Below, one piece after another: positions 9,193 to 42,884 of a stretch of 64,000 nt of DNA. Both the position numbers and the translations under genes were made by a program. Location of the stretch: IMG/VR virus record IMGVR_UViG_3300032334_001259, positions 274,436 to 338,435 of that record; one strand, given 5' to 3'. Numbering within the stretch: the stretch's first letter is position 1; every line of letters begins with the position of its first letter. The notes below the pieces were generated by a model. That model was not told the DNA's origin, searched no databases, and saw only the letters and a program-made list of their open reading frames with translations. The stretch is from a virus.

Positions 9193-9200
9193 TATTTATT
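9193..9200 (-). promoter_or_regulatory. T4-like late promoter box
   Basis: AATAAATA on the minus strand, 7 nt upstream of the ATG at 9185 of the radical SAM gene. It sits inside the last codons of the upstream gene. Confidence 0.5.
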
Positions 9201-9867
9201 GTCCTGTGATTTCACATAATTGTTTTATTGTAGTTATTTTACTATCTTGATTACATAAGTCAATATACTTTTGTGTATCACGACTCCATTCAGCACCTGT
9301 CCACCATTCAAAACCTGATAACTTTGCTTTGTAAATAGAACCTTTTTCATATCCACTACCTATATAGAGATAATTTAATCCTAATTGTGCTGCGCAGTTT
9401 ACTTCAAAGTTTAACATATCTAATCCAAACTTATTTTTTGGATGCGGTATGTAGGCATTAAATTGACTTTCTAATCCACCCGTATATTTTGCAAACTTTG
9501 TGAAACCAACTAATTCATCATTTACATAATACTCCATCCAACGATCACGTTCATTTGTTACAAATGGGTCATAGATTGGTGGATATTTTTTGCTTGTAAT
9601 ATAAGTTTGCCAGATTTGTTTGTATAATTCTATATTTGGATTATTTTCTATAAAAAATATACGGCAGTTTTGTTGTTGATAATTTAGTTTCCAATTCGCA
9701 ATACAAATACGTGTGCTACGTGACTGATACCATAGGTCATTATATAGCAACCAACCATTCGCTAATGCTTCACCTTCTTCATGTGGTTCACATTGCAGAT
9801 TTACATTATATAATTGTATACTGTTGTTTTCTTGTTGACCGTAATAGTGGTCATAAGTAATCTTCAT
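9196..9867 (-). CDS. GNAT protein like arginyl/leucyl-tRNA-protein transferase
   Basis: 223 residues starting MKITYDHYYGQQ. The C-terminal half follows the pattern of ATE/Bpt N-degron transferases: an incoming strand (WMEYYVNDELVGFTKF), the LGLNYLYIGSGYEKGS stretch, then IYKAKLSGFEWWTG and a late Trp. The N-terminal part (LANGWLLYNDLWYQSRSTRI) also recalls ATE_N but lacks its Cys cluster. Such enzymes move an amino acid from tRNA to a protein N-terminus, tagging it for ClpS/ClpAP; the window also encodes ClpS (54678-55004). Other GNAT roles are possible. Start at 9867 behind a TATAATTA box. Confidence 0.5.
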   Translation of the reverse strand: MKITYDHYYGQQENNSIQLYNVNLQCEPHEEGEALANGWLLYNDLWYQSRSTRICIANWKLNYQQQNCRIFFIENNPNIELYKQIWQTYITSKKYPPIYDPFVTNERDRWMEYYVNDELVGFTKFAKYTGGLESQFNAYIPHPKNKFGLDMLNFEVNCAAQLGLNYLYIGSGYEKGSIYKAKLSGFEWWTGAEWSRDTQKYIDLCNQDSKITTIKQLCEITGQ

Positions 9868-9872
9868 ACAGG

Positions 9873-9880
9873 TAATTATA
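9873..9880 (-). promoter_or_regulatory. Late-type box, possibly bidirectional
   Basis: TATAATTA on the minus strand ends 5 nt before the ATG at 9867; the same bases read GGTAATTA-TAG toward the plus-strand ATG at 9882. The two genes diverge with their starts only 14 bp apart, so one small element may serve both. Confidence 0.4.
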
Positions 9881-9881
9881 G

Positions 9882-10376
9882 ATGGTTGACATAGATATCG
9901 CAAAAAGTAAAATCAGCGATTGGATAATTAATTTTTTAGATGTTCCGCAAGAAACACTTAATAACATTGCTCCTTGTCCTTATGCTAAAAATGCATTATT
10001 GGGTAATAAAATAAAGTTTGTTGCTGGTGGTGAAAACATAATAGATGATATGTTATATTTTCATTATCGTTGGGATTTTAATTATGACGGTGTAGTTATA
10101 GTATATCCAAAAACAATTGATGCTGACCGTTTTGTAAACAGTGTGGCAGAAGTCAATACTGGGTATTATACTTTTAGTGGATTGCTTGCACTTGAAGATC
10201 ATCCACAAATAGATGAAACTATTGCTGGTGTTAATTTAAATAATGGCGATTATGCATTGGTCATTATTCAACCAGCAGTTAAGCTACAAAAAGCTATGAA
10301 AATTTTACAAACCAAAGGTTATTATAAAAACTGGACACAGCAAGATTTAGACAATGTTGTTAATTGGAGATGGTAA
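9882..10376 (+). CDS. Unknown protein upstream of amidinotransferase
   Basis: 164 residues starting MVDIDIAKSKISDW. A CPYAK motif near residue 31 and the strands KIKFVAGG and DGVVIVYP give a weak resemblance to DUF1415-type proteins (CPFAK motif); I do not assign a function. It ends exactly where the amidinotransferase begins (10376/10377), so the two are co-translated and probably work together. Confidence 0.65.
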   Translation: MVDIDIAKSKISDWIINFLDVPQETLNNIAPCPYAKNALLGNKIKFVAGGENIIDDMLYFHYRWDFNYDGVVIVYPKTIDADRFVNSVAEVNTGYYTFSGLLALEDHPQIDETIAGVNLNNGDYALVIIQPAVKLQKAMKILQTKGYYKNWTQQDLDNVVNWRW

Positions 10377-11429
10377 TTGTATAGCGTTTACCAACATTGG
10401 GACAAACTTAAAACGTGTGTAGTTGGTCAAAGTTATCCACCAGAATTTTATAGTTATATTACTAATCCCCGTGTTCGCAACGTTATGGAACGTATTGCCA
10501 TTGAGACAGAAGAAGACTATCAAAAATTAATTACATTATTAAAAAGTTTTGATGTTAAAATATTACGTCCTGAATTGAAAGATTCAATTGAATTTTATAA
10601 AATTGAAAATAAAAAATACTCACCTCCACCAATGAATCCACGTGATGATTCTGGCATGTTTGGAAATACTTTTTACATCAACAACCATTTTGATTTTTAT
10701 ACTAACATTATTAAAGATATACAAAATACTAATACAGTAATACAAGGTAAAAATATTAACACAGCCTCAATAACAAGAATAGGCAAAGATTTGTATTTTG
10801 GAACACCATCTGAAAAAGATTTATACAAATTTATTGAACCTAAGTTTGCACATAAAGAAAAATTTTTAAAACAAAAAGAAAAAATTTTAAAACAACATAT
10901 GGTAAAACAAACAGAGAATTTTCCATCTTATAGATGTCATGTTGTTAAAAGTGAAGGACACATTGATGGATGTTTTTGTCCAGTTGTTCCAGGTCTTATT
11001 GTAAGTTTATATAATGTTCAAACTTACAGTAAATCATTTCCTAAATGGGAAGTTATATATTTGCCAAATCAAAGTTTTAATGTAATTGAGTCTTTTAGAA
11101 AACTAAAAAATAAAAATAATGGTAAATGGTGGATACCAGGTGAAGAATTAAATGATGATTTAACTGATTTTATTGAATCATGGTTAAATCATTGGGTAGG
11201 ATATGTTGAAGAAACAGTTTTTGATGTTAATATGTTGGTAATTGATAAAAAAAATGTAGTTTGTAACAACTACAACAAAACTGTGTTTGATGCTTTTGAT
11301 AGGCATGGTATAACACCTCATGTAATCAATTTTAGACATCGTTATTTTTGGGATGGTGGTCTACATTGTATTACAAGCGATTTAGACCGTGATGGTGTTA
11401 TGGAAGATTATTTTCCAGAAAGACTTTGA
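10377..11429 (+). CDS. Amidinotransferase-family protein (GATM-like)
   Basis: 350 residues in the guanidino-group-modifying superfamily. Visible motifs: CVVG at the start, PRDDSGMFGN (Asp of the substrate pocket), EGHIDGCFCPVVPGL (catalytic His with Asp), and GGLHCITSD at the C-terminus (catalytic Cys). Members move an amidino group from arginine to an amine or hydrolyse guanidines. Substrate here unknown; glycine, lysine or a phage-made amine are options. It starts with TTG at 10377, with GGAGATGG upstream, right after the 164-residue gene. Ends converge on the cyclotransferase gene with a 22-nt overlap. Confidence 0.82.
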   Translation: MYSVYQHWDKLKTCVVGQSYPPEFYSYITNPRVRNVMERIAIETEEDYQKLITLLKSFDVKILRPELKDSIEFYKIENKKYSPPPMNPRDDSGMFGNTFYINNHFDFYTNIIKDIQNTNTVIQGKNINTASITRIGKDLYFGTPSEKDLYKFIEPKFAHKEKFLKQKEKILKQHMVKQTENFPSYRCHVVKSEGHIDGCFCPVVPGLIVSLYNVQTYSKSFPKWEVIYLPNQSFNVIESFRKLKNKNNGKWWIPGEELNDDLTDFIESWLNHWVGYVEETVFDVNMLVIDKKNVVCNNYNKTVFDAFDRHGITPHVINFRHRYFWDGGLHCITSDLDRDGVMEDYFPERL

Positions 11430-11887
11430 TATTCATTATATAAATCATAATAAGCATCGCTTACTTGTTGCGGTGTAATACCAGCATGACGAAATCCATT
11501 TAAGATAGACCTTACATAACTCATACTTGGTAAATCACCATCTAAACTTTCACGTGCTACAGGTGTCATATAATATACCCATGCTTCATAACGTTTTCCA
11601 CCACTTATAACTGGAACAGTTTTACGACCATAAAAACGTGGGTAACCTTCAACTGCATCTAACTCACGAATATAATCAGTTGGCAATTCCCAAAGAACAC
11701 CATCTACACTGCTACCACCACGTTCATAAACATTTGCAAATCTTGCAAATTCATAAGCATAATTTTGTAGCACTGCAGGTCCAATAAATTTAGCACCAGG
11801 CATCATTTGTGGATCAGTAAGCATACCATAAGCGAAGTAATAAATTGGTTCACCACCTGCTTCTGTAATAATATCTTTTACTTGCAT
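11408..11887 (-). CDS. Gamma-glutamylcyclotransferase-like, with capsid-targeting-like leader
   Basis: 159 residues. After a 12-residue leader comes the GGCT/AIG2 fold: YYFAYGMLTDPQMM (glycine loop), then LDAVEGYPRFYG with the catalytic Glu. These enzymes release 5-oxoproline from gamma-glutamyl peptides or glutathione. The leader MQVKDIITE followed by AGG matches the T4 internal-protein pattern, where the prohead protease cuts after I-x-E or L-x-E before A, G or S. A late box AATAAATA lies 4 nt before the ATG. It may be packed in the capsid and injected to alter host glutathione (inference). Confidence 0.78.
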   Translation of the reverse strand: MQVKDIITEAGGEPIYYFAYGMLTDPQMMPGAKFIGPAVLQNYAYEFARFANVYERGGSSVDGVLWELPTDYIRELDAVEGYPRFYGRKTVPVISGGKRYEAWVYYMTPVARESLDGDLPSMSYVRSILNGFRHAGITPQQVSDAYYDLYNEYQSLSGK

Positions 11888-11890
11888 ATG

Positions 11891-12289
11891 TTATTTATTG
11901 CGGTCTTTCCAGACTTCATCATTGGCAATGGGTTGCAAAAAATGTATTAGTGCACCTTCCATTGCACTTAACTCAGTTTCTTTTTGCAGTGGAATATAAT
12001 ATGTTTTCCAAAATTCAGTAGGATAATTAGAATTTTCCAATAAAGTTTTCCAACCTTCTGGCATGTAGATATTTTTATTACCAATAGTTTTTTGATAGTG
12101 CATATCTTGACGGGTTCTAATATTACCTTTGCCTATATAGACAATATCAGTATTATTATGAACAATAATATAAACACCACGCATTTTTTGTCTTGGTATT
12201 TTACGCCAATCTAAAAAAGATATTTCTTTTATTTCACAATCAATATTAAAAAAATCAGAGCATTTTTTTACTGTATCTAATATTTTCAT
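11891..12289 (-). CDS. GIY-YIG domain protein
   Basis: 132 residues. GVYIIVHNNTDIVYIGKGN near residue 38 is the GIY-YIG signature, followed by a catalytic-type Arg (RTRQ) and a Glu in MEGALIHF. This family makes single DNA strand cuts in homing or repair enzymes. It stands beside tRNA-Arg and between phage genes. Ribosome site AGGTGA before ATG 12289. The end of the gene contains the late box for the next gene. Confidence 0.78.
   Translation of the reverse strand: MKILDTVKKCSDFFNIDCEIKEISFLDWRKIPRQKMRGVYIIVHNNTDIVYIGKGNIRTRQDMHYQKTIGNKNIYMPEGWKTLLENSNYPTEFWKTYYIPLQKETELSAMEGALIHFLQPIANDEVWKDRNK
11892..11899 (-). promoter_or_regulatory. T4-like late promoter box
   Basis: AATAAATA on the minus strand, 4 nt upstream of the ATG at 11887 (cyclotransferase). 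It overlaps the stop codon of the GIY-YIG gene. Confidence 0.55.
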
Positions 12290-13281: not shown

Positions 13282-13367
13282 TGGCGGAGCGTATAGGAAT
13301 CGAACCTATTCAACCTTTCGGTTGTACACATTAGCAGTGTGCTGCATTACCGGCCTGCCCACGCTCC
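13282..13367 (-). tRNA. tRNA-Ser (anticodon GCT)
   Basis: 86 nt including CCA, with the long variable arm expected of tRNA-Ser (ACAACC/GGTTGA pairing region). Loop CTGCTAA gives anticodon GCT, reading AGC/AGU. The endonuclease-like gene at 13331-14062 ends inside its 5' half. Confidence 0.9.
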
Positions 13368-14062
13368 ATTATTTTACTTATATCATCCTTTTTCCATACT
13401 GTCAACTTATTTTTAAACTGTTGCCATTTACAACGGTCTAAATCTGTTTCATAACCCTTAACTTCTAAATACCCACCCAATTCTTCAACATAAAAGTCTG
13501 GAGTATAGTGACTTATTTTACCAGATAAATTTACATAAGCAAATCTTTCAGTGTTTCTTTTCCAATTCCAATTTTGGGAATCCATATATTGTGCAGCTTT
13601 AAGTTCCCAAGTTCCATCTAACAAAACTTCACCAGCAATAGGACTAATGTATTTTATTTTTTTGCATCTACCCGCTTTTGGCATCCATCCAGTTTCATAT
13701 CTTGATAAAATAATTTCTCTATGCCTGTCTCTAAATTTTTGTTTTTTTTCTTCGCTAAAAGTATGCCAATTTGTTTTTCCTAAATTTGCATTACGTAATT
13801 TTTCTTTTTGAATTATAGCACCTTGCGGTCCAAATATTTCATCGTATGTTTTTCCTTTAAGACTTGTTCCATTCGATGAACCTTTAGGATGTCCATTTTT
13901 CCAATAATTATTGCCTAAATCTTTTCTTAAATTTTTTATTTTTGAACGATTTATTTCTTTCATTCCATTACAGGAACTTGTAGATTTACAACAACAATTT
14001 TTTCCATTTTTTAATTTGTATTTTGCTTCTGTTCCGCAACCATAATCACATAAATCTGTCAT
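13331..14062 (-). CDS. Homing-endonuclease-like protein, stop inside tRNA-Ser
   Basis: 243 residues. N-terminal Cys-rich segment (CDYGCG ... CCCKSTSSC) looks zinc-binding; the middle has NUMOD3-like stretches (GKTYDEIFGPQG); the C-terminus has the PD-(D/E)XK-like core SHYTPDFYVEELGGYLEVKG with PD ... ExK spacing. This suggests a free-standing homing or VSR-type nuclease. A late box TATAAATA (14068-14075) ends 5 nt before the ATG. The last codons (13331-13367) overlap the 5' end of tRNA-Ser, so the gene and tRNA may move as one cassette. Confidence 0.7.
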   Translation of the reverse strand: MTDLCDYGCGTEAKYKLKNGKNCCCKSTSSCNGMKEINRSKIKNLRKDLGNNYWKNGHPKGSSNGTSLKGKTYDEIFGPQGAIIQKEKLRNANLGKTNWHTFSEEKKQKFRDRHREIILSRYETGWMPKAGRCKKIKYISPIAGEVLLDGTWELKAAQYMDSQNWNWKRNTERFAYVNLSGKISHYTPDFYVEELGGYLEVKGYETDLDRCKWQQFKNKLTVWKKDDISKIMERGQAGNAAHC

Positions 14063-14067: not shown

Positions 14068-14075
14068 TATTTATA
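14068..14075 (-). promoter_or_regulatory. T4-like late promoter box
   Basis: Perfect TATAAATA on the minus strand, then 5 nt (ATTAT), then the ATG at 14062. A start point about 6 nt after the box would give a leaderless message. Confidence 0.6.
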
Positions 14076-16229: not shown

Positions 16230-16237
16230 TATTTACC
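16230..16237 (-). promoter_or_regulatory. Late-type box (endolysin)
   Basis: GGTAAATA on the minus strand about 28 nt before the endolysin ATG, followed by a ribosome site. It lies back to back with the plus-strand box at 16253-16260. Confidence 0.45.
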
Positions 16238-16252: not shown

Positions 16253-16260
16253 TATAAATA
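16253..16260 (+). promoter_or_regulatory. T4-like late promoter box
   Basis: Perfect TATAAATA, then 5 nt (TCATT), then the ATG of the Ntn hydrolase at 16266. Best example of the box-N5-ATG layout in the window. Confidence 0.65.
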
Positions 16261-16265: not shown

Positions 16266-17147
16266 ATGTGTGTTATAGTTGCAAAATATTTTGATAATGT
16301 AGGTTGGGTTGGTGTAAAAAATCGTGATCGCAACTATGTTCCTGATTTAAGTTTTCGTAAAAAGAAAAATAAAAATACAGAAGTATTATATTTTTGGGAT
16401 GATATTACACAATACTGTGAAGGCATGAATGACAGCGGAGTTTGTGTGTTATCTGCAAGCCTTATGGTGCTAGATGATGAAAAAGAAATCACTGTTCGCA
16501 CCAAGACACCAAGCAAAGATGGCGTAAAGATTCAAAAGGCATTGCGACTAACTGATATTAAAGCAGTAGCAATGAGTTTAATTAAACAAAAGCTACCAGG
16601 ATGCACAATTATATTTGATCGTGAAACTTGTTATCTACTTGAAGGTGCATGGGCACCTGGTGGATATGAAGATAAAGATTACAAATATAAGATAGAAGAA
16701 ATACCACATGACGAAACTGTTGCAAGAACTAATCACGGCGTATGGTTAAAGTGGGCAGGATATCAATATAGCAGTGATGACAGTGAAACTGCCAGTGCTA
16801 TAAGCAGTCGCAGTCGTTTAATCATTGCAGAACATATTGCAAAAAATGCTGAAACACCTGCACAACTTATTGATTGGTTAACTAAAAAATATGTTGATAA
16901 CTGGCAATTAAATGCACTACGTCTTACAGATGAAAAGAAAATGATGCGAACAACAGCACAACTTATGTTAGTTCCAAAAGAAAATACAATGTTTGTTCGT
17001 CCAATTCAAAGTAATATTACTTTTAATTTTTGGAAACTTAATGGTAGTGATAGTAAACTTTGGGTAGAATTATTAAGTAATCGTGTGCTACGCAGTGGTG
17101 AAGATGATCCAAGTATTCCTACTAATTTAGGTCATATCACAGACTAA
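16266..17147 (+). CDS. Ntn hydrolase (choloylglycine hydrolase/C45-like)
   Basis: 293 residues beginning MCVIVAKYF: after Met removal Cys-2 would be the N-terminal nucleophile. GVKNRDRNY and GMNDSGVCVLSASL match the family 'own nucleophile, Arg, Asn' pattern of linear amide hydrolases (bile salt hydrolase, penicillin V acylase, peptidase C45), and RTNHGVWL is the usual autolysis/active-site region. These enzymes break amide bonds of acylated amines; some degrade acyl-homoserine lactones. Role for a phage unknown, perhaps signal quenching (inference). Convergent with the next gene, 4-nt overlap. Confidence 0.75.
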   Translation: MCVIVAKYFDNVGWVGVKNRDRNYVPDLSFRKKKNKNTEVLYFWDDITQYCEGMNDSGVCVLSASLMVLDDEKEITVRTKTPSKDGVKIQKALRLTDIKAVAMSLIKQKLPGCTIIFDRETCYLLEGAWAPGGYEDKDYKYKIEEIPHDETVARTNHGVWLKWAGYQYSSDDSETASAISSRSRLIIAEHIAKNAETPAQLIDWLTKKYVDNWQLNALRLTDEKKMMRTTAQLMLVPKENTMFVRPIQSNITFNFWKLNGSDSKLWVELLSNRVLRSGEDDPSIPTNLGHITD

Positions 17148-21396: not shown

Positions 21397-21404
21397 TATA
21401 ATTA
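21397..21404 (+). promoter_or_regulatory. Late-type box (TATAATTA)
   Basis: TATAATTA, 5 nt (CCTTT), then the ATG at 21410. Same variant and nearly the same spacer start (CCT) as the box at 9873-9880. Confidence 0.5.
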
Positions 21405-21409: not shown

Positions 21410-22624
21410 ATGAATAATTGCAAACCACTTCGTAAATGTCTTTGCTGTGATAGTAATGACCTCAAACTTACATTAGATTTAGGTTCTCAACCTCTTGCCA
21501 ATAGTTTCAAGGCAACAGCAATAGAACGTGAAGAAACATATCCACTTGCTGTAAATTACTGTCCACATTGCCATCATCTGCAATTAACCCATGCAGTTGA
21601 TGCTAATATAATTTTTAAAGATTATGTATATGTAAGTGGAACATCACTTACTATGCAAGAATATTTTAAGTGGTTTGCTGCATTTGTTATGGAATATTTT
21701 CAAGATGTTCCGCCAAAGCGTGTGCTTGAAATTGGCTGTAATGATGGCACACAGTTAAACTATTTTAAGAAATATGGATTAGAAACGTGGGGCATTGATC
21801 CTGCGGAAAACATTTATCCAATCAGCAGCAAAAATCATAACATTATTTGTGACTTTTTATCTCAACATGCTTTGGATAAACTCAAGCGTCCAGTAGATAT
21901 TATATACGCACAAAATGTTTTTGCGCATCAAGACAATCCACAACAATTCCTTGAACTTTGCAAATCTGTGATGAACCCTAACACACTGTTGTTCATACAG
22001 AATAGTCAAAGTGATATGATTCAAAATAATGAATTTGATACAATCTATCATGAACATAGAAATTTCTTTAGCATTAGTAGCCTTAATACCCTTGCTAACC
22101 ATGTTGGACTACACCTTATTGATGTAGTAAAGGGTACAATTCACGGTGGTAGTAATATCTTTGTGTTCAGCATAGATGATGAATGTCCTGCACGTGTCAA
22201 GGGTTATATGGATTGGGAACGTATCCAAGGATTATATAATTACAAAACCTATCAGAATTGGGCAGATGGTGCTAAACGTACAGTTAATGATTTAAGCATT
22301 GTGTTAGATGCACAGCGCAAAGCACACAATCGTGTGATTGTAGGTTATGGTGCGCCAGCCAAAGGTAATACGCTATTGAACTTTGGTAATATATCACTTG
22401 ATTTTATTATAGATGATAATCCATTAAAGCAACACAAATATACACCTGGTATGAGTATTCCTGTTGTTCCTATTGAACACTTACAGAAGTATGTTGGTGT
22501 AGACATTTGTTTTGTGCCGCTTGCATGGAACTTTTTTGATGAAATTGTAGATCGTCTTAAAAAGGTTCGTAATAATAGTGGTGATGTATTTGTAAGATAC
22601 TTTCCAAGTATCCAGATACAATAA
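21410..22624 (+). CDS. SAM-dependent sugar C-methyltransferase-like protein
   Basis: 404 residues with the three-part layout of NDP-sugar C-methyltransferases: N-terminal zinc motif CLCCDSNDL ... CPHCHH (Methyltransf_13 type), a SAM-binding Rossmann core with VLEIGCNDG, and a C-terminal domain with VGYGAPAKGNTLLNF. Related enzymes add a methyl to deoxy sugars. The substrate may be a NDP-sugar made through the dehydratase at 39948. Late box directly upstream. Confidence 0.82.
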   Translation: MNNCKPLRKCLCCDSNDLKLTLDLGSQPLANSFKATAIEREETYPLAVNYCPHCHHLQLTHAVDANIIFKDYVYVSGTSLTMQEYFKWFAAFVMEYFQDVPPKRVLEIGCNDGTQLNYFKKYGLETWGIDPAENIYPISSKNHNIICDFLSQHALDKLKRPVDIIYAQNVFAHQDNPQQFLELCKSVMNPNTLLFIQNSQSDMIQNNEFDTIYHEHRNFFSISSLNTLANHVGLHLIDVVKGTIHGGSNIFVFSIDDECPARVKGYMDWERIQGLYNYKTYQNWADGAKRTVNDLSIVLDAQRKAHNRVIVGYGAPAKGNTLLNFGNISLDFIIDDNPLKQHKYTPGMSIPVVPIEHLQKYVGVDICFVPLAWNFFDEIVDRLKKVRNNSGDVFVRYFPSIQIQ

Positions 22625-22627
22625 ATA
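22620..22627 (+). promoter_or_regulatory. T4-like late promoter box
   Basis: AATAAATA, 5 nt (TCTAC), then ATG 22633. Its sequence and spacing match the box before 23551. Confidence 0.6.
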
Positions 22628-22632: not shown

Positions 22633-23529
22633 ATGCGAATTAGTGAAATTATTGTTGAAGCACCAACTGATGTAAGTCGTCGTGGATTTCTTAAAGGATT
22701 AGCAAGCATTGCTGCATCTACTGCAATGCCACAAAATGCTGTTGCAAAAATATTAAAGGCAGTTCCTAAATCACAAATTGAAATATTAGACGATCTTTTT
22801 AAAAATGTACATCCAATTGTACTAGACACCGTAGGCAGTGAATATGGCAGGGTGGGAGTACACGGAGAACACGCTATAAGTGCTTTTACTAACTCAGAAT
22901 ATGATGCTTTACATAGATTGGTAAGACCTCTTTATAAAGAACAAGGTTTTGCAACTGAACGTGATGCAGTAAATGCATTAAAAAAAATAGCAACTATGAG
23001 CAGCAAAACTACTAATGAATATTACAAGGTATTTGAATACCTACTTGGAAGACCACTTGAAGTAAGAAAATTAGAAAACATACTGGCATCACATGGCACC
23101 AATGTAGACAGTTTTTTTGGTCAAATGATGAAGAATGAACCATTTGAAGAAGCGTTTATGCAATTATCAAATGAGGCTTATATGAATATTGGTGGCACAC
23201 GTTATTTTGAACCTATCGCAAATTTAAAACCGCTACCACCAAATTGGGCAACGGCACTTGGACAGTCAGTAAAACGATTTGCAAATAATGCAGGACAAGT
23301 AGCAAGATTTACAGGTAAAAACTATCTTGATAAAAAACTTCCTGATTTATCCCCTCAACAACTTGACCAGAGAAACGCAACTCAAGACAGGGTAGATAAA
23401 GAAAAAAAAGAACCACAAAAACCAAAAGAACTTGAAAAACCAAAAGATGATGAAAAGAAAATTACATCATATGGCGGTAGTGCAACTGGTAAGTTTGTAA
23501 AACCAATTGCTGCAAAAGTTAACGCTTAA
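22633..23529 (+). CDS. Capsid-targeted Tat-signal-like protein
   Basis: 298 residues. It begins MRISEIIVE-APTDV, a T4-type capsid-targeting leader with a prohead protease site after IVE, then SRRGFLKGLASIAAS, a twin-arginine motif with a hydrophobic stretch and AVA as a possible export cleavage. The rest is helical, then a charged, Pro/Lys-rich C-terminus (residues 250-285). If cut after Glu-9, the new N-terminus would start the Tat signal. This suggests an injected protein re-exported by host Tat. No catalytic motif recognised. Confidence 0.7.
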   Translation: MRISEIIVEAPTDVSRRGFLKGLASIAASTAMPQNAVAKILKAVPKSQIEILDDLFKNVHPIVLDTVGSEYGRVGVHGEHAISAFTNSEYDALHRLVRPLYKEQGFATERDAVNALKKIATMSSKTTNEYYKVFEYLLGRPLEVRKLENILASHGTNVDSFFGQMMKNEPFEEAFMQLSNEAYMNIGGTRYFEPIANLKPLPPNWATALGQSVKRFANNAGQVARFTGKNYLDKKLPDLSPQQLDQRNATQDRVDKEKKEPQKPKELEKPKDDEKKITSYGGSATGKFVKPIAAKVNA

Positions 23530-23537: not shown

Positions 23538-23545
23538 CATAAATA
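23538..23545 (+). promoter_or_regulatory. T4-like late promoter box
   Basis: CATAAATA, 5 nt (TCTGT), then ATG 23551. Confidence 0.55.
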
Positions 23546-23550: not shown

Positions 23551-24264
23551 ATGCGTTTTACACAATTCAAACCAATAATTCTCGAAGGTGGAAATATGTT
23601 TAAGGGAACAACATCCTATGATCAGGCTGTTGTTCCACAAGTATTAAAGATAATTAATGATGCGCTAAGTGGTGCAAGACTTAAAGTTACGCCAGTTGGT
23701 AGTGGTGCAAATCCTGTCAAGGGTAAAATCAGTAACGATTTTGATGTTATGACAGATGAAGATGCTGTTAAGGCTTTCTTTAAAACCAATGATGCCAAGG
23801 AAGCACGTAAGAAATTAGCAGAATATCTTAAGAATCTTGGATTTCAAACTGCACAAAGTGGAATAATTGTGCATGTGTTGGTTCCTGTAGCCAATATGGG
23901 TGTGCAAGCTGATATTATGGTAACACCACAAGCAGATGCAATTGCCAAGTTTCATACTCATAATATTCCACAAAATAGCCCATTCAAAGGTAAGAACAAA
24001 GTTCTGACCATGGGAGCAATCGCTAAGGCCAAAGGTTATATGTTTAGCCCATGGCAAGGGTTGTTTAAACGCACACCAGATGGTAAAAAAGGTGAACTTG
24101 TAAGTAATGATATTGAAACAGTTGCTAAAGTATTACTTGGCAATTCCGCAACTGCCGCTGACTTGGGTAGTGTAGAAAGCATTCTTAAAAAACTTCCACG
24201 TGCAGATGCAGATAAACTTCTCGCAACTCTACGTGCTGATCCAAATTGGGAAGAACTTAAATGA
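23551..24264 (+). CDS. Nucleotidyltransferase-fold protein, capsid-targeted leader
   Basis: 237 residues. The N-terminus MRFTQFKPIILE-GGN fits the prohead protease site (I-L-E before G). The core has GSGANPVKGKISNDFDVM: Gly-Ser and two Asp as in the DNA polymerase beta superfamily, and VQADIMVT gives the third acidic residue. So it may transfer nucleotides to RNA or protein after injection. Stop overlaps the next start (ATGA). Confidence 0.68.
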   Translation: MRFTQFKPIILEGGNMFKGTTSYDQAVVPQVLKIINDALSGARLKVTPVGSGANPVKGKISNDFDVMTDEDAVKAFFKTNDAKEARKKLAEYLKNLGFQTAQSGIIVHVLVPVANMGVQADIMVTPQADAIAKFHTHNIPQNSPFKGKNKVLTMGAIAKAKGYMFSPWQGLFKRTPDGKKGELVSNDIETVAKVLLGNSATAADLGSVESILKKLPRADADKLLATLRADPNWEELK

Positions 24265-29629: not shown

Positions 29630-31675
29630 TTACTTGGTGCTGGTTCTGTAAACAGTATCCCAACCAGCGCCTGGTGGGTTTGCAGCCATTTCTTCACAAC
29701 GTTCAATCCACATATCATAATATCCATCCATTTGCCCGTCAAATTGACCTTTAATTTTTTTACAAATTTCTATTGCACTTGTAAATCTTTGAGCACGATA
29801 GTCATCCATCATGTGTTTATGATTAGTTTTAGCAGCAAGATATGCAATTCTATCACTGCGTTGTTCTAATACTGTAAAGATATCAACACCTTCTTTTTTA
29901 CCTTTAACCGCAATGCAGTCTAATTCAAGTGTAAAGTAATCATCTTTTACATATTCATTTGTCTTTGGTCCAATAACCATAGCAACATGATATGGTTTAC
30001 TTTGCCCTTCTAAACGTGAAGCAAGATTAACGCCATCACCAAGACAAGTATAATCAAATCGCTGGCTACTACCCATGTTACCAACGACGACAGTAGCAGT
30101 GTTGATACCAAGTCCCATTCCAAAAGGTGGGACTCCCTCTTTGGCAACTTCTTCATTAAACGCATTTAAACTTCCTAACATTTGTAGTGCTGTCTTTACA
30201 GCGTTCTTGGCATGATCTGCATCATCAAGTGGTGCGTTCCAAAATGCCATTTGTGCATCACCGATATATTTGTCAAGTGTGCCTTCATTCTCTAATATCT
30301 TAGCAGTCATCGCTGTCATATAGCGGTTCATTATTTTGGTAAGACCTTGAACGTCACTACCGTAATGCTCAGAAATGCTAGTAAAACCCCTAACATCGGT
30401 AAATATAATTGATAACTCACGTGACTCTCCTCCCAATGCTAATAGTTCTGGATTCTTTTGAAGTTTTTCAACCATTGCAGGTGAAAGATAAGTTCCAAAT
30501 TGTTTCTTTATTTGTTGCTTTTGTAAGAACTCACTGACGAACTTAACACCGTAGGCATGCAAAGCGACCAAGATGATTCCAGCAACAGGAGCGGTTGCGT
30601 CCCATAACTGTAAAGCGTGATTAAACTGATAGAAAGAAAAAGCAATACTGCCGCCGACCAATACAATAACCGAACCAAGCCCAACATATACCCACCTCGT
30701 CAAGAATAATAATAACAGTCCACCAATTACGAGTGCAATAAGTTCTGCACCTTCTGCATAACTTGGACGTTCAATGTTAACCTTATTTGCCAACGTAGCA
30801 ATAATCTTTGCTTGTATATCTTGTGGATATACTGCACCAACAGCAGTAGGAACAGGGTTTGCAATACCAGCAGCACTAACACCAACAATAACAATTGCGC
30901 CATCAAACTTTTCTGGCATATTTGTAACGCTTACTTGTTTGTGTTGTTGACTTAAATCAATCCATACACGACCTAAACTATCAGTTGTGAATATATTTTT
31001 ACCAATACCAAGTTTATCAATTCCAAGTTCATTTAACTTAACTTTCATATTCTTTTCATTATAAAGAACACGAAGTGTTTCAAGACCGATTGTAGGATAA
31101 AGTTTACCACCACTGCCAACAAGCAGCGGAATACGACGATTAACACCATCTATTTCAGGAAATACGTTTGTTGTTCCAACACCAATTGCACTATTTTCTA
31201 AATCTGGAATGTTGGCAATAACACCAGGATAATTGTAAATTCTATCAATAAAATTACTGTTGACAATGGCGGCACCATTTGGGCGTGGTGTGTTCTTGCC
31301 TACGCTACTTGGAATATTACTTAAAATTACTGGATGATTTTTAAGAGTTTCAGCAAGTGCAGCGTCACCACCTTGGCGGTCTGCTTCTGGCATTAACACT
31401 GTCCAAACAACAATGCTTGCACCACGTGCATAAATGTCGTTAATTATATCCGCATATATCTGTCTATTAAACGGCCATTGTCCATACTTGTTAAGTGCGG
31501 CTTCATCAATATTAACTGTATAAATTGGGTTTTCAGTTTGTGTTTTATTTGTGATAAGTTGGTCAAAGTATTTTAACTTGACGCTTTCAACAAATGTAGG
31601 TGATGAAACTTTTATGGCAACTACGATTGCCAATGTTATGAGTGCAGTCCATGGGCTTAATAGAATTTTTTTCAT
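29630..31675 (-). CDS. CHASE2-domain adenylate/guanylate cyclase
   Basis: 681 residues from MKKILLSPWTALI. The N-terminal membrane helix, a periplasmic CHASE2 sensor (IYTVNIDEAALNKYGQWPFN, then DADLAET-like), further membrane helices near residues 310-380, and a class III cyclase: FTDVRGFTSISE (metal Asp), KYIGDAQMAFW (second Asp), GMGLGINTATVVVGNMGS, and CLGDGVNLASRLEG. It should make cAMP or cGMP in response to an external signal. Its own late box GGTAAATA lies 5 nt before the ATG (box 31681-31688). It sits next to FecR and curli genes, a pairing also seen in bacteria. Confidence 0.88.
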   Translation of the reverse strand: MKKILLSPWTALITLAIVVAIKVSSPTFVESVKLKYFDQLITNKTQTENPIYTVNIDEAALNKYGQWPFNRQIYADIINDIYARGASIVVWTVLMPEADRQGGDAALAETLKNHPVILSNIPSSVGKNTPRPNGAAIVNSNFIDRIYNYPGVIANIPDLENSAIGVGTTNVFPEIDGVNRRIPLLVGSGGKLYPTIGLETLRVLYNEKNMKVKLNELGIDKLGIGKNIFTTDSLGRVWIDLSQQHKQVSVTNMPEKFDGAIVIVGVSAAGIANPVPTAVGAVYPQDIQAKIIATLANKVNIERPSYAEGAELIALVIGGLLLLFLTRWVYVGLGSVIVLVGGSIAFSFYQFNHALQLWDATAPVAGIILVALHAYGVKFVSEFLQKQQIKKQFGTYLSPAMVEKLQKNPELLALGGESRELSIIFTDVRGFTSISEHYGSDVQGLTKIMNRYMTAMTAKILENEGTLDKYIGDAQMAFWNAPLDDADHAKNAVKTALQMLGSLNAFNEEVAKEGVPPFGMGLGINTATVVVGNMGSSQRFDYTCLGDGVNLASRLEGQSKPYHVAMVIGPKTNEYVKDDYFTLELDCIAVKGKKEGVDIFTVLEQRSDRIAYLAAKTNHKHMMDDYRAQRFTSAIEICKKIKGQFDGQMDGYYDMWIERCEEMAANPPGAGWDTVYRTSTK

Positions 31676-31680: not shown

Positions 31681-31688
31681 TATTTACC
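31681..31688 (-). promoter_or_regulatory. T4-like late promoter box (cyclase)
   Basis: GGTAAATA on the minus strand, 5 nt (TTACC), then the cyclase ATG at 31675. It follows directly after the terminator at 31698-31721. Confidence 0.6.
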
Positions 31689-33887: not shown

Positions 33888-34889
33888 TCAATGTATTTGT
33901 TGTAAGTTTTTTAAAAAACTATTTGTGCATTTTTCCCAAGTATAATCTTTGCTTATTTTATGTACATTTTTGCGATTACAGTCTAGTGCATATTCAATGG
34001 CAATTTGTAAATTGTCATCCATAGCACCATTTACACCATTTATTATAATATCAGTTGGACCTGTAACTGGATATGCTGCAATTGGTGTTCCACATGCCAT
34101 TGCTTCTAACATTACCACACCAAAGGTATCAGTCTTACTTGGAAATACAAATACATCTGAGTTAGCATAATATTCAGCAAGTGCATCACCATGTTTATAA
34201 CCTGTAAAAATTACGTCGTTATATTTCTTTTTTAATTCTGCCAAGTATGGACCATCACCAACTAATATTTTTGTTCCGTCAGTTTTTAGACTGCAAAAAT
34301 CATCTAAACCTTTTTCTATGCTTGCACGACTTACGCAAAGTAATATAGGTTTAGTTGCTTGATTTGACTTACGTTTTTTGGGATTAAATATTTTAGTATC
34401 AACTCCACGATTCCATACAGCAAGACGTTCAAATCCACGTCCTTGTAATTCTTGTCGCATAGTTTCATTTGTAACTAAAACCCGTGTGCTAAACTTATGA
34501 AACCAACGAATAAACCAATAACCCCAATCTACGGGTATATTAAAATATTTGTTAAAGTATTCTGGAAATTTTGTATGATAACTTGTGTTATGTGGAATAC
34601 TGCGCTTATCTACTTTGCAATACCAACGTGCGGCAAATCCTAATGGACCCTCTGTAGCAATATGAATAGCATCTGGCTTAAACGATTCAATCATGGGACC
34701 AACACGCCAAATATTAAGTGTAAGTTTTATTTCTGGATAACCTGGCGCTGGCACAGTCTTAAATTGACTAGGTTCAATAACCTGAACTATATGTCCAAGT
34801 CGTTCTAACTCTGCAACAGTGTTTATAAGAGTTGTAACAACACCATTTACACTTGGTGCGTATGTATCAGTTACCAGTGAGATTCGCAT
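33888..34889 (-). CDS. GT4 glycosyltransferase, likely glycolipid (Agt-like)
   Basis: 333 residues, GT-B fold: N-terminal VTDTYAPSVNGVVTTL (glycine-rich lobe of lipid GTs), HIATEGPLGFAARWYC, and the donor-site FPSKTDTFGVVMLEAMACG with the E-x7-E motif. Its 23-nt overlap with the PlcP-like gene matches the bacterial plcP-agt operon, in which PlcP makes diacylglycerol from phospholipid and Agt adds glucose or glucuronate. So a glycolipid-forming enzyme is likely, although plain GT4 is all that sequence proves. Confidence 0.75.
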   Translation of the reverse strand: MRISLVTDTYAPSVNGVVTTLINTVAELERLGHIVQVIEPSQFKTVPAPGYPEIKLTLNIWRVGPMIESFKPDAIHIATEGPLGFAARWYCKVDKRSIPHNTSYHTKFPEYFNKYFNIPVDWGYWFIRWFHKFSTRVLVTNETMRQELQGRGFERLAVWNRGVDTKIFNPKKRKSNQATKPILLCVSRASIEKGLDDFCSLKTDGTKILVGDGPYLAELKKKYNDVIFTGYKHGDALAEYYANSDVFVFPSKTDTFGVVMLEAMACGTPIAAYPVTGPTDIIINGVNGAMDDNLQIAIEYALDCNRKNVHKISKDYTWEKCTNSFLKNLQQIH

Positions 34890-35616
34890 TTTTATATTTA
34901 ATTATAAACCAATGACCATTATAATCTTCAACTAATGCTGTGCAACTTTCAACCCAATCACCGCAATTCATATATTTTATATCACCTATTTCACGTATAT
35001 TTGCGTGATGTATATGTCCGCATATAATTCCATTTGCACCACGTGTTCTCGCAAAACTAGCAAGATTATCTTCAAAATCACCAATAAAGTTTACTGCCTT
35101 TTTAACTTTATATTTTGCCCAAGCACTTAAACTCCAATATGGTAACTTAAATAAATTTCTAATTCTTGCTATAACAACATTTAATGCAATTGTTAAATCA
35201 TATGCCCAACTACCAATATGACTTAACCATTTCATATTTTTAATAACAACATCAAACTGGTCTCCATGCATAACAATATATTTTTTACCATCTAAGCTGG
35301 CATGTGTAATATTATCCACGAGACAAATATTACCAAAGCTATACTCTCCAAATGTTCGTAAAAATTCATCGTGATTTCCTGGCAAATAATAGACTTGAAC
35401 GCCTTTTCTTGCCAAACGCATAAGTTTTTGGATTACATCATTATGATGTTGCGGCCAGTAAAAACTTTTAGCCATTGCCCAACCATCAATTATGTCACCA
35501 ACAAGATACAGACGTTCACACTCAAAAGTTTTAATAAATTCAAGCAAATCATTTGCTTGACTCATACGAGTGCCTAAATGCACATCGCTTATAAAGACAC
35601 TACGATAATAATTCAT
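34867..35616 (-). CDS. PlcP-like metallophosphoesterase
   Basis: 249 residues. Calcineurin-like motifs in order: FISDVHLGT, VGDIIDGW, LPGNHDEF, VMHGDQFD, CGHIHHAN, and a characteristic MNCGDWVESCTA near the end. The whole pattern matches PlcP, a manganese phospholipase C of phosphate-starved bacteria that is often mis-annotated as UDP-2,3-diacylglucosamine hydrolase (LpxH). LpxH is less likely because of the C-terminal GDWVESCTA. A late-type box (35623-35630) lies 6 nt before ATG 35616, then the GT4 gene follows. Confidence 0.78.
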   Translation of the reverse strand: MNYYRSVFISDVHLGTRMSQANDLLEFIKTFECERLYLVGDIIDGWAMAKSFYWPQHHNDVIQKLMRLARKGVQVYYLPGNHDEFLRTFGEYSFGNICLVDNITHASLDGKKYIVMHGDQFDVVIKNMKWLSHIGSWAYDLTIALNVVIARIRNLFKLPYWSLSAWAKYKVKKAVNFIGDFEDNLASFARTRGANGIICGHIHHANIREIGDIKYMNCGDWVESCTALVEDYNGHWFIIKYKNANLTGN

Positions 35617-35622: not shown

Positions 35623-35630
35623 TATTTACC
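35623..35630 (-). promoter_or_regulatory. Late-type box (PlcP-like gene)
   Basis: GGTAAATA on the minus strand, 6 nt before ATG 35616. Confidence 0.5.
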
Positions 35631-39215: not shown

Positions 39216-39223
39216 TATTTATT
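39216..39223 (-). promoter_or_regulatory. Late-type box and ribosome-site hairpin (csgF)
   Basis: AATAAATA on the minus strand lies in the loop of a hairpin AATCCTC ... GAGGATT (about 39204-39235) whose 3' arm contains the csgF ribosome site. Transcription from a promoter further upstream would place the ribosome site in a stem; from this box, only the 3' arm would be transcribed and it would be free. Confidence 0.45.
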
Positions 39224-39243: not shown

Positions 39244-39771
39244 TTAAGACAATTTCTTTATAGGTCTGCGAAATTCAACTATTGATGCTACAGGATATGC
39301 GCTTATGTTAACACTGTCGTCTTGGTTTCCACCAAGAAGTTGAACATACTTTATACCATTATCAAATGTCCAACCATAAAAGAAAGCGACATGGCGACCA
39401 CTTCCACCGCTACGGCGCATTAAGACAATATCGCCTGGTTGGGGGTCTGTAACTTTTATTCCGTAGTTATGATAACTTGCTGCACTTAAATTACCAGTGG
39501 AATCATAACCAGCACGTTCTAATACATAGTTTATAAAACCAGCACACCAAGGAATTTTTACAGGATCAATATCTAATATGGCTTGTAATTCTTTACGATT
39601 CTTTTTTGCATCATAACCATTATAATTCATGGCTATTTGCATTATATCACCACGTGTTTCACCAAATGTTAAACCATTGGAGTCCCAATTAAATGGAATC
39701 GTTAATTCAAATGCGCTTGCACTATTGAAAGGTATTAGACAAATACCAATTATTGCTAATAATCTTTTCAT
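39244..39771 (-). CDS. Secreted cysteine peptidase/amidase, TIGR02594/CHAP-like
   Basis: About 175 residues. Signal peptide (RLLAIIGICLIPFNSASA), then IPWCAGFINYVLERAG (catalytic Cys), QPGDIVLMRR and GRHVAFFYGW (His): the layout of NlpC/P60-CHAP family murein amidases. It may open the murein for the curli machine or release virions. The ATG at 39771 is preferred since a late box AATAAATA (39776-39783) lies 4 nt upstream; another ATG lies one codon before. Confidence 0.75.
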   Translation of the reverse strand: MKRLLAIIGICLIPFNSASAFELTIPFNWDSNGLTFGETRGDIMQIAMNYNGYDAKKNRKELQAILDIDPVKIPWCAGFINYVLERAGYDSTGNLSAASYHNYGIKVTDPQPGDIVLMRRSGGSGRHVAFFYGWTFDNGIKYVQLLGGNQDDSVNISAYPVASIVEFRRPIKKLS

Positions 39772-39775
39772 CATA

Positions 39776-39783
39776 TATTTATT
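39776..39783 (-). promoter_or_regulatory. T4-like late promoter box
   Basis: AATAAATA on the minus strand, 4 nt before ATG 39771. It may also serve the csgF-csgG-curlin genes downstream. Confidence 0.5.
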
Positions 39784-39793
39784 TTAGGCTGGC

Positions 39794-39869: not shown

Positions 39870-39880
39870 ATCGTTTTTAT

Positions 39881-39909
39881 AATTTAGCATTAAATTATTG
39901 ACCTGTCAA
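39881..39909 (-). promoter_or_regulatory. Sigma70-type promoter (tRNA-Gln)
   Basis: Minus strand TTGACA (39909-39904), 17-bp spacer, TAAATT (39886-39881), just before the tRNA-Gln 5' end. Confidence 0.6.
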
Positions 39910-39926
39910 GAAATATCCTATATATT
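39898..39926 (+). promoter_or_regulatory. Sigma70-type promoter (dehydratase)
   Basis: TTGACC (39898-39903), 17-bp spacer, TATATT (39921-39926), then a CGGAGAAA ribosome site and ATG 39948. It overlaps the -35 box of the divergent tRNA promoter. Confidence 0.6.
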
Positions 39927-39947
39927 ATTAAAATACACGGAGAAAAT

Positions 39948-40982
39948 ATGTCAAAGAACGTTCTTATTACTGGCGGCGCAGGATTTATTGCACACCATGT
40001 TATTGATCATATCCTTAAAACTACAGATTGGAATATTGTCAGTCTTGACCGCTTGGACTTTAGCGGTAACCTAAATCGTCTGCATGATATGATGCAAGAT
40101 CATGATCCACAAACACAAAAACGTGTAAAGGTAATATTTCATGATCTCAAAGCAGAAATTAACCCTCTTACTAAAACTCGTATCGGTCCTGTTGATATTA
40201 TTCTTCACTTGGCCGCTGGTTCTCACGTTGATCGTAGTATTGATTACCCTATGGAGTTCGTTCTTGATAATGTTGTTGGAACTTGTAATATTCTTGAATT
40301 TGCTCGTAAATGTGATAATTTAGAACGTTTTGTATATTTCTCAACTGATGAAGTATTTGGTCCTGCACCGCATGGCGTAAACTATGGTGAGTATGATCGC
40401 TATAACAGCGGTAATCCATATAGTGCTACCAAGGCTGGCGGTGAAGAATTAGCAGTATGTTATGAAAACACTTATGGTCTTCCAGTTTATGTGACACATA
40501 CCATGAACGTATTTGGTGAGCGTCAGCATCCAGAGAAGTTTATTCCTATGTGTATCCGCAAAGCTCGTGATGGTGAAACTATTACAGTTCATAGTGATAG
40601 AACTCGCACTATTCCTGGTTCACGTCACTATATTCATGCCAAGGATGTTGCCAGTGCACTTATGTTTATTCTTGGTCTTAAGGATTTTGTAATGCCACCA
40701 GAGTTTGGTGGTGCAAAATGTCCAAAGTTCAACATTGTAGGTAAACAGGAAATCAATAACCTAGAACTAGCACAGATTATTGCCGATAGTCAAGGCAAAC
40801 CCCTTAACTATGAAATGGTTGACTTCCATAGCAGCCGTCCTGGTCATGATCTTCGTTACGCACTTAGCGGTGAGTTTATGAAGAACCTTGGTTGGGAACC
40901 TACTATTGAACTTACAGAACGTATTAAACAAGTTGTAGATTGGACCCTTGCTCGTCCAGATTGGTTGAACTTAGATGTCTAA
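39948..40982 (+). CDS. NDP-sugar 4,6-dehydratase-like (SDR)
   Basis: 344 residues, extended SDR fold: GGAGFIAHH (NAD), LHLAAGSHVDRS, STDEVFG (catalytic Asp-Glu of dTDP-glucose 4,6-dehydratase), and YSATKAG (catalytic Tyr-Lys). It should make a 4-keto-6-deoxy sugar, the substrate for sugar methylation or amination. It is cotranslated with the next gene (8-nt overlap). Companions: methyltransferase (21410), glycosyltransferases nearby. Confidence 0.85.
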   Translation: MSKNVLITGGAGFIAHHVIDHILKTTDWNIVSLDRLDFSGNLNRLHDMMQDHDPQTQKRVKVIFHDLKAEINPLTKTRIGPVDIILHLAAGSHVDRSIDYPMEFVLDNVVGTCNILEFARKCDNLERFVYFSTDEVFGPAPHGVNYGEYDRYNSGNPYSATKAGGEELAVCYENTYGLPVYVTHTMNVFGERQHPEKFIPMCIRKARDGETITVHSDRTRTIPGSRHYIHAKDVASALMFILGLKDFVMPPEFGGAKCPKFNIVGKQEINNLELAQIIADSQGKPLNYEMVDFHSSRPGHDLRYALSGEFMKNLGWEPTIELTERIKQVVDWTLARPDWLNLDV

Positions 40983-41709
40983 GAAAAAAGAAAAGAAATA
41001 TGGTGTTTTTATCACCAGTGCAATTAATGCAAAGTTTTCACTTTATAGTCCAGCAGAGCGACTAGAACAAACACTTGAAACTATTGCAAGTGTTCGTGAA
41101 CGTATTCCAAATGCTGTTATTTGTTTAACAGATTGTGGTATTCCTGGCTTGACTGATGAACAAATTGAAACATTAACAAAAGATGTAGATCATTTTATTG
41201 ATTTTAGTCTTGATGATAATGTTGTTGAAATTCATAAAAATATTCAAGTTCAGGATATTGTAAAAAATCTTACTGAAATGTGTGTAGTTCGTAGCTTTTT
41301 CACATATGCACTTGAAGAAGGTTGGTTTGATGGTTGCGACCGCATTTTTAAAGTAAGTGGTCGTTACACACTCACTGACCGCTTTAATACTAAAGATTAT
41401 GAAAATGATATAATTGGTGACAAATATGTTGTAAGCAAACGCTTGTTAAGTCAGTTTGCTCACGGTATCACTGGTATTGACCAACAATATATGTTACGTG
41501 TTTATAGCTTTGGTGCAAACCGTCAACGTGAATTTTTAATGCTTCTTGAAGATATGATTAACCATATGCAAGAACGTGTAAGCGTTGGTGGATATATTGA
41601 TATAGAACATCTTTGGCATAAGTTTTTACCTCGTGATGCAATCATTGAATTTGATCGCACAGGTGTTCGTGGACACGTAGCACCAAACGGAACCTTTATT
41701 GAGAATTAA
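40975..41709 (+). CDS. Probable glycosyltransferase-like protein
   Basis: 244 residues. FKVSGRYTLTDRF and the N-terminal strands GVFITSAINAKFS resemble GT-A-type sugar transferases of large viruses, but the DxD motif is not clear. Follows the dehydratase with an 8-nt overlap, supporting a sugar role. Convergent with the next gene. Confidence 0.6.
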   Translation: MSKKKEKKYGVFITSAINAKFSLYSPAERLEQTLETIASVRERIPNAVICLTDCGIPGLTDEQIETLTKDVDHFIDFSLDDNVVEIHKNIQVQDIVKNLTEMCVVRSFFTYALEEGWFDGCDRIFKVSGRYTLTDRFNTKDYENDIIGDKYVVSKRLLSQFAHGITGIDQQYMLRVYSFGANRQREFLMLLEDMINHMQERVSVGGYIDIEHLWHKFLPRDAIIEFDRTGVRGHVAPNGTFIEN

Positions 41710-42652
41710 TAACTTTTTCTATTTCTGGAAAAAACACATTTTCTGAATATTGATTTATTTGTTTTTTTTGATAGAAATTATTATAATTTAATTCTAGTTT
41801 TTCTTTTGTTATAGAATCATATGGTGAATAATTAAAGTTTTCAATATTATCTTGTATAATTTTAACTTTTTTAATAAAATCTTCTTCTTCATCATATGAT
41901 TCATCAAATAAATTTTCAAAGGTTTGGAAGCCCCAATCCTTCATAAGTTTAAGAGAATTTTTCGAACCCATAACCATGTATGGATGAAAATATTGTATTG
42001 GTTTAAATGTTTTTTCCGTTATAAAAATTGAGTTATTGTTTATATTTGTTTCAAGAACTAACGAAAAAAATGTAGAATCATACCAACTTGGATTAAAAAA
42101 TCTATCATTAAAACTATTATTAGATCCATCATTGGGAAGATATATTTTTTTGTATACTTGACTATAAATTGCATCTTTTAAATAAAATGTCATATAGTGG
42201 ATAAATCTTTCTCTCCATTTTTTATATTGTGCAACTGGCATTAAAAACTTTTTCTCGTAGTTTTTTTGAGGTATATAAGTTTTTTTACAAATTGACTCAA
42301 TCAACCACCAGTAAAAAGGAAAATAAAAATAATTTTGTTTTTTGATTGATGGGTAATTTCCATAAAGAAAATACAAATTACTATGTTCAATCTTAATATT
42401 AAAATCTTCTTCACCAATTAAATCATAAAAAATAAAATTATTTGGATATTTTTCTATAATTTTTTGAATACGGTAAGGTTCGTTTTTTAAATCTAAAGAA
42501 AAATTTTTAGAGTTAAGAGTTAATACTAAAATATCTTCATCTTTAATTTTATATTCTTCACTAAAATTAACAAATTGATAATTTTTATTAGAGTAAAAAC
42601 ATACAGTTTCAAAAGATGAAATTTTTGAATCAAATTTTATAAATTTTTTCAT
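41696..42652 (-). CDS. Glycosyltransferase, GT10/exostosin-like C-terminus
   Basis: 318 residues starting MKKFIKFDSKISS. The C-terminal part IFITEKTFKPIQYFHPYMVM and GSKNSLKLMKDWGFQTFENLF follows the donor-site pattern of fucosyltransferase GT10 and exostosin families (E-K-x-x-x-P, G-F-x-T-F). The gene is unusually AT-rich (many K, N, I, F), unlike its neighbours, which suggests recent transfer. A late-type box (42658-42665) lies 5 nt before the ATG; the frame opens further upstream in the next gene. Confidence 0.65.
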   Translation of the reverse strand: MKKFIKFDSKISSFETVCFYSNKNYQFVNFSEEYKIKDEDILVLTLNSKNFSLDLKNEPYRIQKIIEKYPNNFIFYDLIGEEDFNIKIEHSNLYFLYGNYPSIKKQNYFYFPFYWWLIESICKKTYIPQKNYEKKFLMPVAQYKKWRERFIHYMTFYLKDAIYSQVYKKIYLPNDGSNNSFNDRFFNPSWYDSTFFSLVLETNINNNSIFITEKTFKPIQYFHPYMVMGSKNSLKLMKDWGFQTFENLFDESYDEEEDFIKKVKIIQDNIENFNYSPYDSITKEKLELNYNNFYQKKQINQYSENVFFPEIEKVINSQ

Positions 42653-42656
42653 TTTT

Positions 42657-42884
42657 TTATTTAATATTATAAATTTTTTCAATATCATATTCACGCAAAT
42701 CAAGCAGTTTTGATGTACCATCAGTGGTAACAATAGCAACGCCAAGACCACTTTCTTGGCGTTCATCAGGATAAGTCACTGCACTTACATAATCAGCATA
42801 ATCAGTATTAGCAATAATACGCTTAATATGATTAAGAATTTTAAGATGTTTGAATTTATTTGAACAATCGATAACTTCGGACAT
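42657..42884 (-). CDS. Small phage protein, unknown
   Basis: About 75 residues starting MSEVIDCSNKFKHL; ATG overlaps the SWIM gene stop as TAATG. Alternating strands (GVAIVTTDGTSKLLDLREY). The late box of the next gene lies at its end. Function unknown. Confidence 0.6.
   Translation of the reverse strand: MSEVIDCSNKFKHLKILNHIKRIIANTDYADYVSAVTYPDERQESGLGVAIVTTDGTSKLLDLREYDIEKIYNIK
42658..42665 (-). promoter_or_regulatory. Late-type box (ATTAAATA)
   Basis: ATTAAATA on the minus strand, 5 nt (AAAAA), then ATG 42652. Confidence 0.4.

Follow-up and report, generated by a model that had tools for sequence, protein, structure and literature searches.

The DNA analysed here is a window of 64,000 nucleotides (nt), the terminal part of the 338,435-base virus record IMGVR_UViG_3300032334_001259 (positions 274,436 to 338,435), and the feature under study is a set of boxes of the bacteriophage T4 late-promoter type that stand a fixed few nucleotides before start codons. 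The record belongs to a T4-like jumbo phage: it encodes the gp23 major head protein and a gp55-family sigma factor of 282 residues (phrog_12791 at 1.3e-78, phrog_234 at 3.5e-23), whose gene adjoins one for a metallophosphoesterase-type nuclease. By gp23 and sigma, its named relatives are the PA5oct-type Pseudomonas phages, Phosso, Atu_ph07, 121Q and GAP32; in a nucleotide search, window positions 1-25000 gave no match in a phage collection.

Boxes before start codons in the window

The boxes are TATAAATA-like, often with a substituted first-position T, and we define the gap as the number of nucleotides between box and start codon. All eleven box-ATG sites listed in an initial annotation of the window are present as described. 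On the plus strand, TAAATA boxes with a gap of 5 are TATAAATA at 16253..16260 before ATG 16266 (gene 16266-17147), AATAAATA at 22620..22627 before ATG 22633 (gene 22633-23529) and CATAAATA at 23538..23545 before ATG 23551 (gene 23551-24264, protein N-terminus MRFTQFKPIILEG). Their minus-strand counterparts are TATAAATA at 14068..14075 before ATG 14062 of an endonuclease-like gene (13331-14062), GGTAAATA at 31681..31688 before ATG 31675 of a CHASE2-nucleotide cyclase gene (29630-31675), and ATTAAATA at 42658..42665 before ATG 42652 (gene 41696-42652), a weaker site in A-rich sequence. The TAATTA variant TATAATTA has the same gap at 21397..21404 (plus strand; ATG 21410, methyltransferase gene 21410-22624) and at 9873..9880 (minus strand; ATG 9867, gene 9196-9867), the latter being a weaker case in which a longer TTG-started open reading frame is possible. 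The gap is 4 for AATAAATA at 11892..11899 (minus strand; ATG 11887, gamma-glutamyl cyclotransferase-like gene 11408-11887) and at 39776..39783 (minus strand; the second ATG, 39771, of an ATGATG in the tail-lysozyme-like gene 39244-39774), and 6 for GGTAAATA at 35623..35630 (minus strand; ATG 35616, metallophosphoesterase-like gene 34867-35616). Three further sites can be added to the list: ATTAAATA at 34895..34902 (minus strand; gap 5, ATG 34889, glycosyltransferase gene 33888-34889), TTTAAATA at 2689..2696 (minus strand; gap 6, ATG 2682, radical SAM gene 1147-2682) and a weak TAGAAATA before 12737. Alternative starts exist for the genes at 9867 and 14062, and the first gene call put the start of the latter at 13963. 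The annotation also held that most of these genes lack a Shine-Dalgarno (SD) site, and indeed 10 of the 11 have no SD word of at least 4 nt, the exception being 35616, where AGGT runs into the box.

The window also holds leadered boxes, which serve as a comparison class. Examples are TAAATA at 62372..62377 (plus strand; 21 nt to ATG 62399, with GGAG between) and, on the minus strand, at 45487..45492 (25 nt to ATG 45461, AAGGA), 45044..45049 (20 nt to ATG 45023, AAGGAG) and 16230..16235 (28 nt to ATG 16201, AAGGA). By eye, TAAATA also appears within or next to the loops of hairpins that resemble terminators and lie just before genes (59341-59346, 52145-52150 and 39216-39221, minus strand), sites that look like a fused terminator and late promoter.

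Spacing between box and start codon

Spacing was analysed in 184 kb of the record, with genes called by a codon model blind to boxes and SD sites (gene totals vary slightly, 221 or 224, because the model was retrained). In a motif-free alignment of 221 upstream regions, the strongest position-fixed words are SD words, with AGGAGA at 5 nt, and TAAATA, likewise at 5 nt. TAAATA occurs at gap 5 in 12 of these 221 genes, against a mean of 0.41 and a maximum of 3 when the upstream regions are shuffled by dinucleotide, and at gaps 4 and 6 in 4 and 5 genes. The window alone has gap 5 in 6 of 91 genes (shuffle mean 0.17, maximum 2, 500 shuffles), and the remaining 120 kb, which lay outside the view of the initial annotation, has it in 5 of 133 (0.21, maximum 3), or 8 of 133 when gaps 4-5 are counted. 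The observation of a preferred box-start spacing is confirmed.

A comparison with a random background had been proposed along with that observation, and its outcome depends on what is shuffled: the gene-anchored counts are far above their shuffles, whereas shuffles of raw window DNA discriminate poorly. TAAATA-N5-ATG occurs 7 times in the window, against a mean of 2.8 and a maximum of 7 in 200 shuffled versions, so that at least one shuffle equals the observed count, as it would if the pattern were a chance product of AT-rich DNA. We rejected whole-window shuffling as the main test; it is too weak a test given the depletion of TAAATA, which is less frequent in the record than any other of the 15 permutations of its letters (115 copies in the 184 kb, against a median of 405 across permutations). 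Chance is refuted by the gene-anchored shuffles, those of the held-out 120 kb included, and relatives with a median GC of 0.43 show the pattern while the AT-rich PA5oct, 121Q and T4 are empty; its probability is negligible. When a box is taken as given, ATG stands at offset 5 after 12 of the record's 115 boxes (10.4%) and after 68 of the 628 in the relatives described below (10.8%), against about 2.5% at other offsets, and TAAATA ranks first among its 15 permutations in this respect. The depletion of TAAATA is, separately, what would be expected if selection removes stray late promoters.

Conservation in uncultured relatives

The relatives comprise 80 loci around related gp23 genes, the best 80 of at least 600. 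A box at gap 4-5 precedes 72 of their 780 genes (59 at gap 5, 13 at gap 4), while each other gap up to 44 nt accounts for 0-14 genes, and the arrangement recurs in 29 protein clusters, 15 of them through a gene of the window record. The gene at 22633 is uninformative in this regard, its close relatives being one near-identical contig only. One example is a group of 44 small orthologous genes close to the head-gene cluster. The box stands at gap 4-5 in 32 of them, and 29 of the 32 lack an SD word. Among the rest, 2 have it at gap 6, 2 at 7, 1 at 8 and 5 at 15-18, those with longer leaders mostly carrying SD-like words; the last two were called at an internal ATG and have an SD-preceded ATG five codons earlier. 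Loci L028 and L093 show, by eye, a hairpin-loop TAAATA similar to those of the window upstream of their members of this group. In 100-kb samples of larger related records, gap 4-5 genes number 6 of 106 (G004), 6 of 113 (G006), 3 of 102 (G007) and 11 of 94 (G008).

Cultured phages

HTVC008M has gap 5 in 8 of 154 genes and gap 4 in none, and Mosig and Melnitz have 7 of 129 and 2 of 114. Across the whole HTVC008M record, TAAATA-N5-ATG has 14 matches, of which 12 fall at GenBank-annotated starts: 2OG oxygenase, CsgF, cyclase, tape measure, gp2, gp4 (head closure), baseplate tail tube cap, baseplate wedge subunit, baseplate wedge initiator, a hypothetical gene, tail completion protein and transcriptional regulator. 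Of the other two, one lies inside DNA polymerase and one at no annotated start. Twenty-four HTVC008M-related contigs, many of them near copies and fetched via gp2, itself a member of the class, have gap 5 in 42 of 183 genes and gap 6 in one. The gp2 box at gap 5 is kept in HTVC008M, Mosig and Melnitz, whose gp2 proteins are about 39% identical. As a separate observation, the CHASE2 and adenylate/guanylate cyclase gene of the window (29630-31675, minus strand) has an HTVC008M homologue (36% identity over 612 aligned positions) that also stands behind a gap-5 box.

Ten other cultured T4-like phages have no gap 4-5 box in any of the 1,283 genes sampled: PA5oct (155 genes), Phosso (161), Atu_ph07 (177), 121Q (124), GAP32 (165), T4 (137), Vibrio 2.275 (86), ValKK3 (83), phiM12 (116) and S-CAM1 (79). 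Counts are low in S-H38 (1/75) and P-SSM2 (2/75). These phages were sampled over 60-150 kb each. A gp23 tree places PA5oct, Phosso, Vibrio 2.275, 121Q and GAP32 in a clade (100/100) separate from the uncultured one, within which branching is not resolved and labels are rough, and sets HTVC008M (gp23 38% identity) far from the jumbo clade. Since HTVC008M is distant and the class-free cultured jumbo phages form a supported clade of their own, the class either arose more than once or was lost, and the tree does not fix the number of origins.

The start codons of the window record are predicted computationally, and one could suppose that the late promoters are real while the true start codons lie farther downstream, behind ordinary leaders. 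In that event SD-preceded internal starts ought to be common, yet they were found in 1 of 16 class genes against 15 of 205 others in the record, and in none in each of five other sequence sets. The 44-member group has similar N-termini from the ATG in question, with leadered members beginning at the matching residue, and the HTVC008M starts were annotated independently, so we consider misplaced starts very improbable indeed.

Sequence around the start codons

SD words are absent from all 16 gap 4-5 genes of the record, as against 15 of 24 genes with a box at 12-30 nt and 89 of 181 others. The relatives have them in 4 of 72 gap 4-5 genes, 77 of 114 leadered genes and 332 of 522 boxless genes. 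The leadered count is somewhat inflated: all 7 leadered window genes have an SD word, and in about 3 of the 7 it lies, by eye, within the stem of an apparent terminator-type hairpin. Start codons of the gap 4-5 class are ATG in 83 of 87 cases and GTG in 4. Transcription start sites are usually marked by a pyrimidine-purine step, and a pyrimidine directly precedes the ATG in 28 of 33 gap-5 genes pooled from six phages, compared with 155 of 308 genes that have neither box nor SD word and 175 of 400 with an SD word (p 1.6e-4 and 5e-6). Finally, divergent gaps of 26 nt (HTVC008M gp2/gp4) and of 27 and 36 nt (both in G006, at L107:10981-11007 and L105:14505-14540) each hold two boxes that point away from each other and end 4-5 nt from their ATGs; two boxes in so short a gap leave almost no room for a leader at either promoter.

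A/T-rich starts are common in AT-rich phages, and the lack of SD words in the class would also fit a signal for translation, with an unstructured A/T-rich stretch at 5 nt that ribosomes use in place of the SD site and that is no promoter. Against this, the word is identical to the T4 late box, which is found at 12-30 nt as well, together with SD words, and at most one of its 15 permutations is rarer in any of the five sequence sets tested. The spacing optimum is one nucleotide wide, and boxes are paired in divergent gaps. We regard a pure translation signal as very unlikely.

A head-protease cleavage motif occurs within the first 16 residues in 4 of 16 class genes against 9 of 205 others (p=0.009), a suggestive, post hoc pattern. 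The protein of 22633-23529 (plus strand; MRISEIIVEA...) begins MRISEIIVEAPTDVSRRGFLKGLAS, with a possible head-protease cleavage site immediately before a twin-arginine motif. Its match to the Pfam TAT_signal family is weak, below the cut-off, and an export signal on a head-packaged protein would be odd.

Predicted leaderless late messages

The T4 late box spans -13 to -6 (PMC1524935), and a box in that position with a gap of 5 nt makes the A of the ATG position +1. We think it very likely that these T4-type late promoters are placed so that the predicted messages start at AUG and are leaderless, and that they probably define a leaderless class of late messages. The phage gp55-family sigma, acting on host RNA polymerase, would read the boxes. 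At a subset of them the first transcribed base would be the start codon's A (gap 5) or a base no more than two nucleotides away (gaps 4 and 6), and the resulting 5'-AUG messages would be translated by leaderless initiation. The remaining late genes of the same genomes would have leaders of some 10-25 nt that include an SD site. The leaderless messages proposed in the initial annotation stand as a prediction, which is well supported by the fixed spacing, loss of SD words, the pyrimidine before the A, conservation and the divergent gaps.

Several observations weigh against it. At leadered boxes no clear pyrimidine-purine step is evident at the corresponding offset, and the transcription start may scatter over 1-3 nt. 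Co-directional upstream genes lie close to many class genes in most records, so that read-through messages with long leaders are possible. The signal is thin in G007 and in Melnitz, where one of the two genes has an SD word, and G006 has gap 4 instead of 5 in the stretches sampled. Whole-record counts of ATAAATA-N5-ATG exceed a reversed control in PA5oct (8 against 4) and Atu_ph07 (5 against 2), though in 150 kb of the first and 130 kb of the second no such match coincides with a called gene start. A search of the record with phrog_223, the gp45 sliding clamp family, gave no match, and neither did its controls.

The phage polymerase could also initiate one to a few nucleotides off the T4 position and leave very short leaders of 1-5 nt. 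Its sigma and host polymerase are not those of T4, and gaps of 4, 6 and 7 are seen too, the last for instance before portal orthologs. The sharp mode at 5, the pyrimidine before the A and the exact match to T4 geometry argue for a start on the AUG, and we judge very short leaders to be unlikely. A broader scenario is that two distant T4-type lineages each fused part of their late regulon's promoters to start codons, with much virion protein made from leaderless messages, and that they exploited or created a late ribosome state favouring 5'-AUG over host SD messages; this is conceivable, and we put it forward as speculation with the odds against it.

bS21 and other genes of the window

A link between the phage's bS21 and leaderless translation, also suggested in the initial annotation, did not hold up. 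The window's bS21 gene (56693..56941, minus strand) is preceded by AAGAGGAAAATA and has no gap-5 box. bS21 is present in the window record, G002, G003, G007, G008, HTVC008M, PA5oct, Phosso, Atu_ph07 and Vibrio 2.275, and was not found in G004, G005, G006, 121Q, GAP32, T4, six other scanned phages and the shorter contigs G001 and G009-G014. HTVC008M has both bS21 and the class. The class occurs without detected bS21 in G004 (345 kb), G006 (318 kb) and G005 (223 kb); records may be incomplete, yet the first two exceed 300 kb. Conversely, PA5oct, Phosso, Atu_ph07 and Vibrio phage 2.275 carry bS21 and lack the class at gaps 4-5 in the stretches examined. On this pattern of co-occurrence, we rejected bS21 as the partner of the class.

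Neither of two window genes led to a host: a genome scan with bS21 yielded no relative, and the best matches of the IMP dehydrogenase (55578-56678) were unclassified Gammaproteobacteria metagenome-assembled genomes at 61-63% identity, too distant to name one. The window further encodes two B12-binding radical SAM proteins (1147-2682 and 7233-9185, minus strand), a carbamoyltransferase (48645-50108) and an S-adenosylmethionine synthetase (45527-46618).

Comparison with known systems

Leaderless translation in Gram-negative bacteria is usually regarded as a minor or stress mode, and here some late genes of a lytic phage, among them virion genes, appear to rely on it. With leaderless and leadered genes transcribed off the same box, such a phage would offer a natural experiment to show under which conditions a gene needs its leader, and gene callers that score SD sites may misplace the starts of the class. 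In searches limited to open-licence PMC papers we found no description of leaderless late messages in T4-like phages, which is not proof of absence.

Leaderless mRNAs occur in bacteria such as Mycobacterium and for phage lambda cI. The class resembles these in a message from AUG (here predicted), the lack of an SD site and a -10 type element just upstream; it differs in that an entire temporal class of lytic phage genes would be of this kind, served by a phage sigma, with leadered genes mixed into the regulon. With the late promoters of T4 (gp55/gp33/gp45) it shares the TATAAATA box, no need for a -35 element, a gp55-family sigma and a box roughly one helical turn ahead of the start, which here is predicted (PMC1524935, PMC2988020). 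Unlike the class, T4 has no gap 4-5 box in 100 kb (137 genes); its boxes lie farther upstream, and 18 of its 19 leadered genes have SD words. The giant phages AR9 and phiKZ are jumbo phages too and likewise have a late promoter motif of their own beside the start site, but they use phage multisubunit RNA polymerases, and leaders of 26-491 nt are given for AR9 (PMC5312081). The available part of the Melnitz report gives 15 late promoters and does not mention leaderless messages (PMC9004378). Further parallels are HTVC008M, Mosig (Pelagibacter) and Melnitz (Methylophilales), which have the same box at gap 5 before late genes and differ from the window record in a distant gp23 and smaller genomes; because HTVC008M and Mosig are in culture and both have the class, the prediction can be tested directly.

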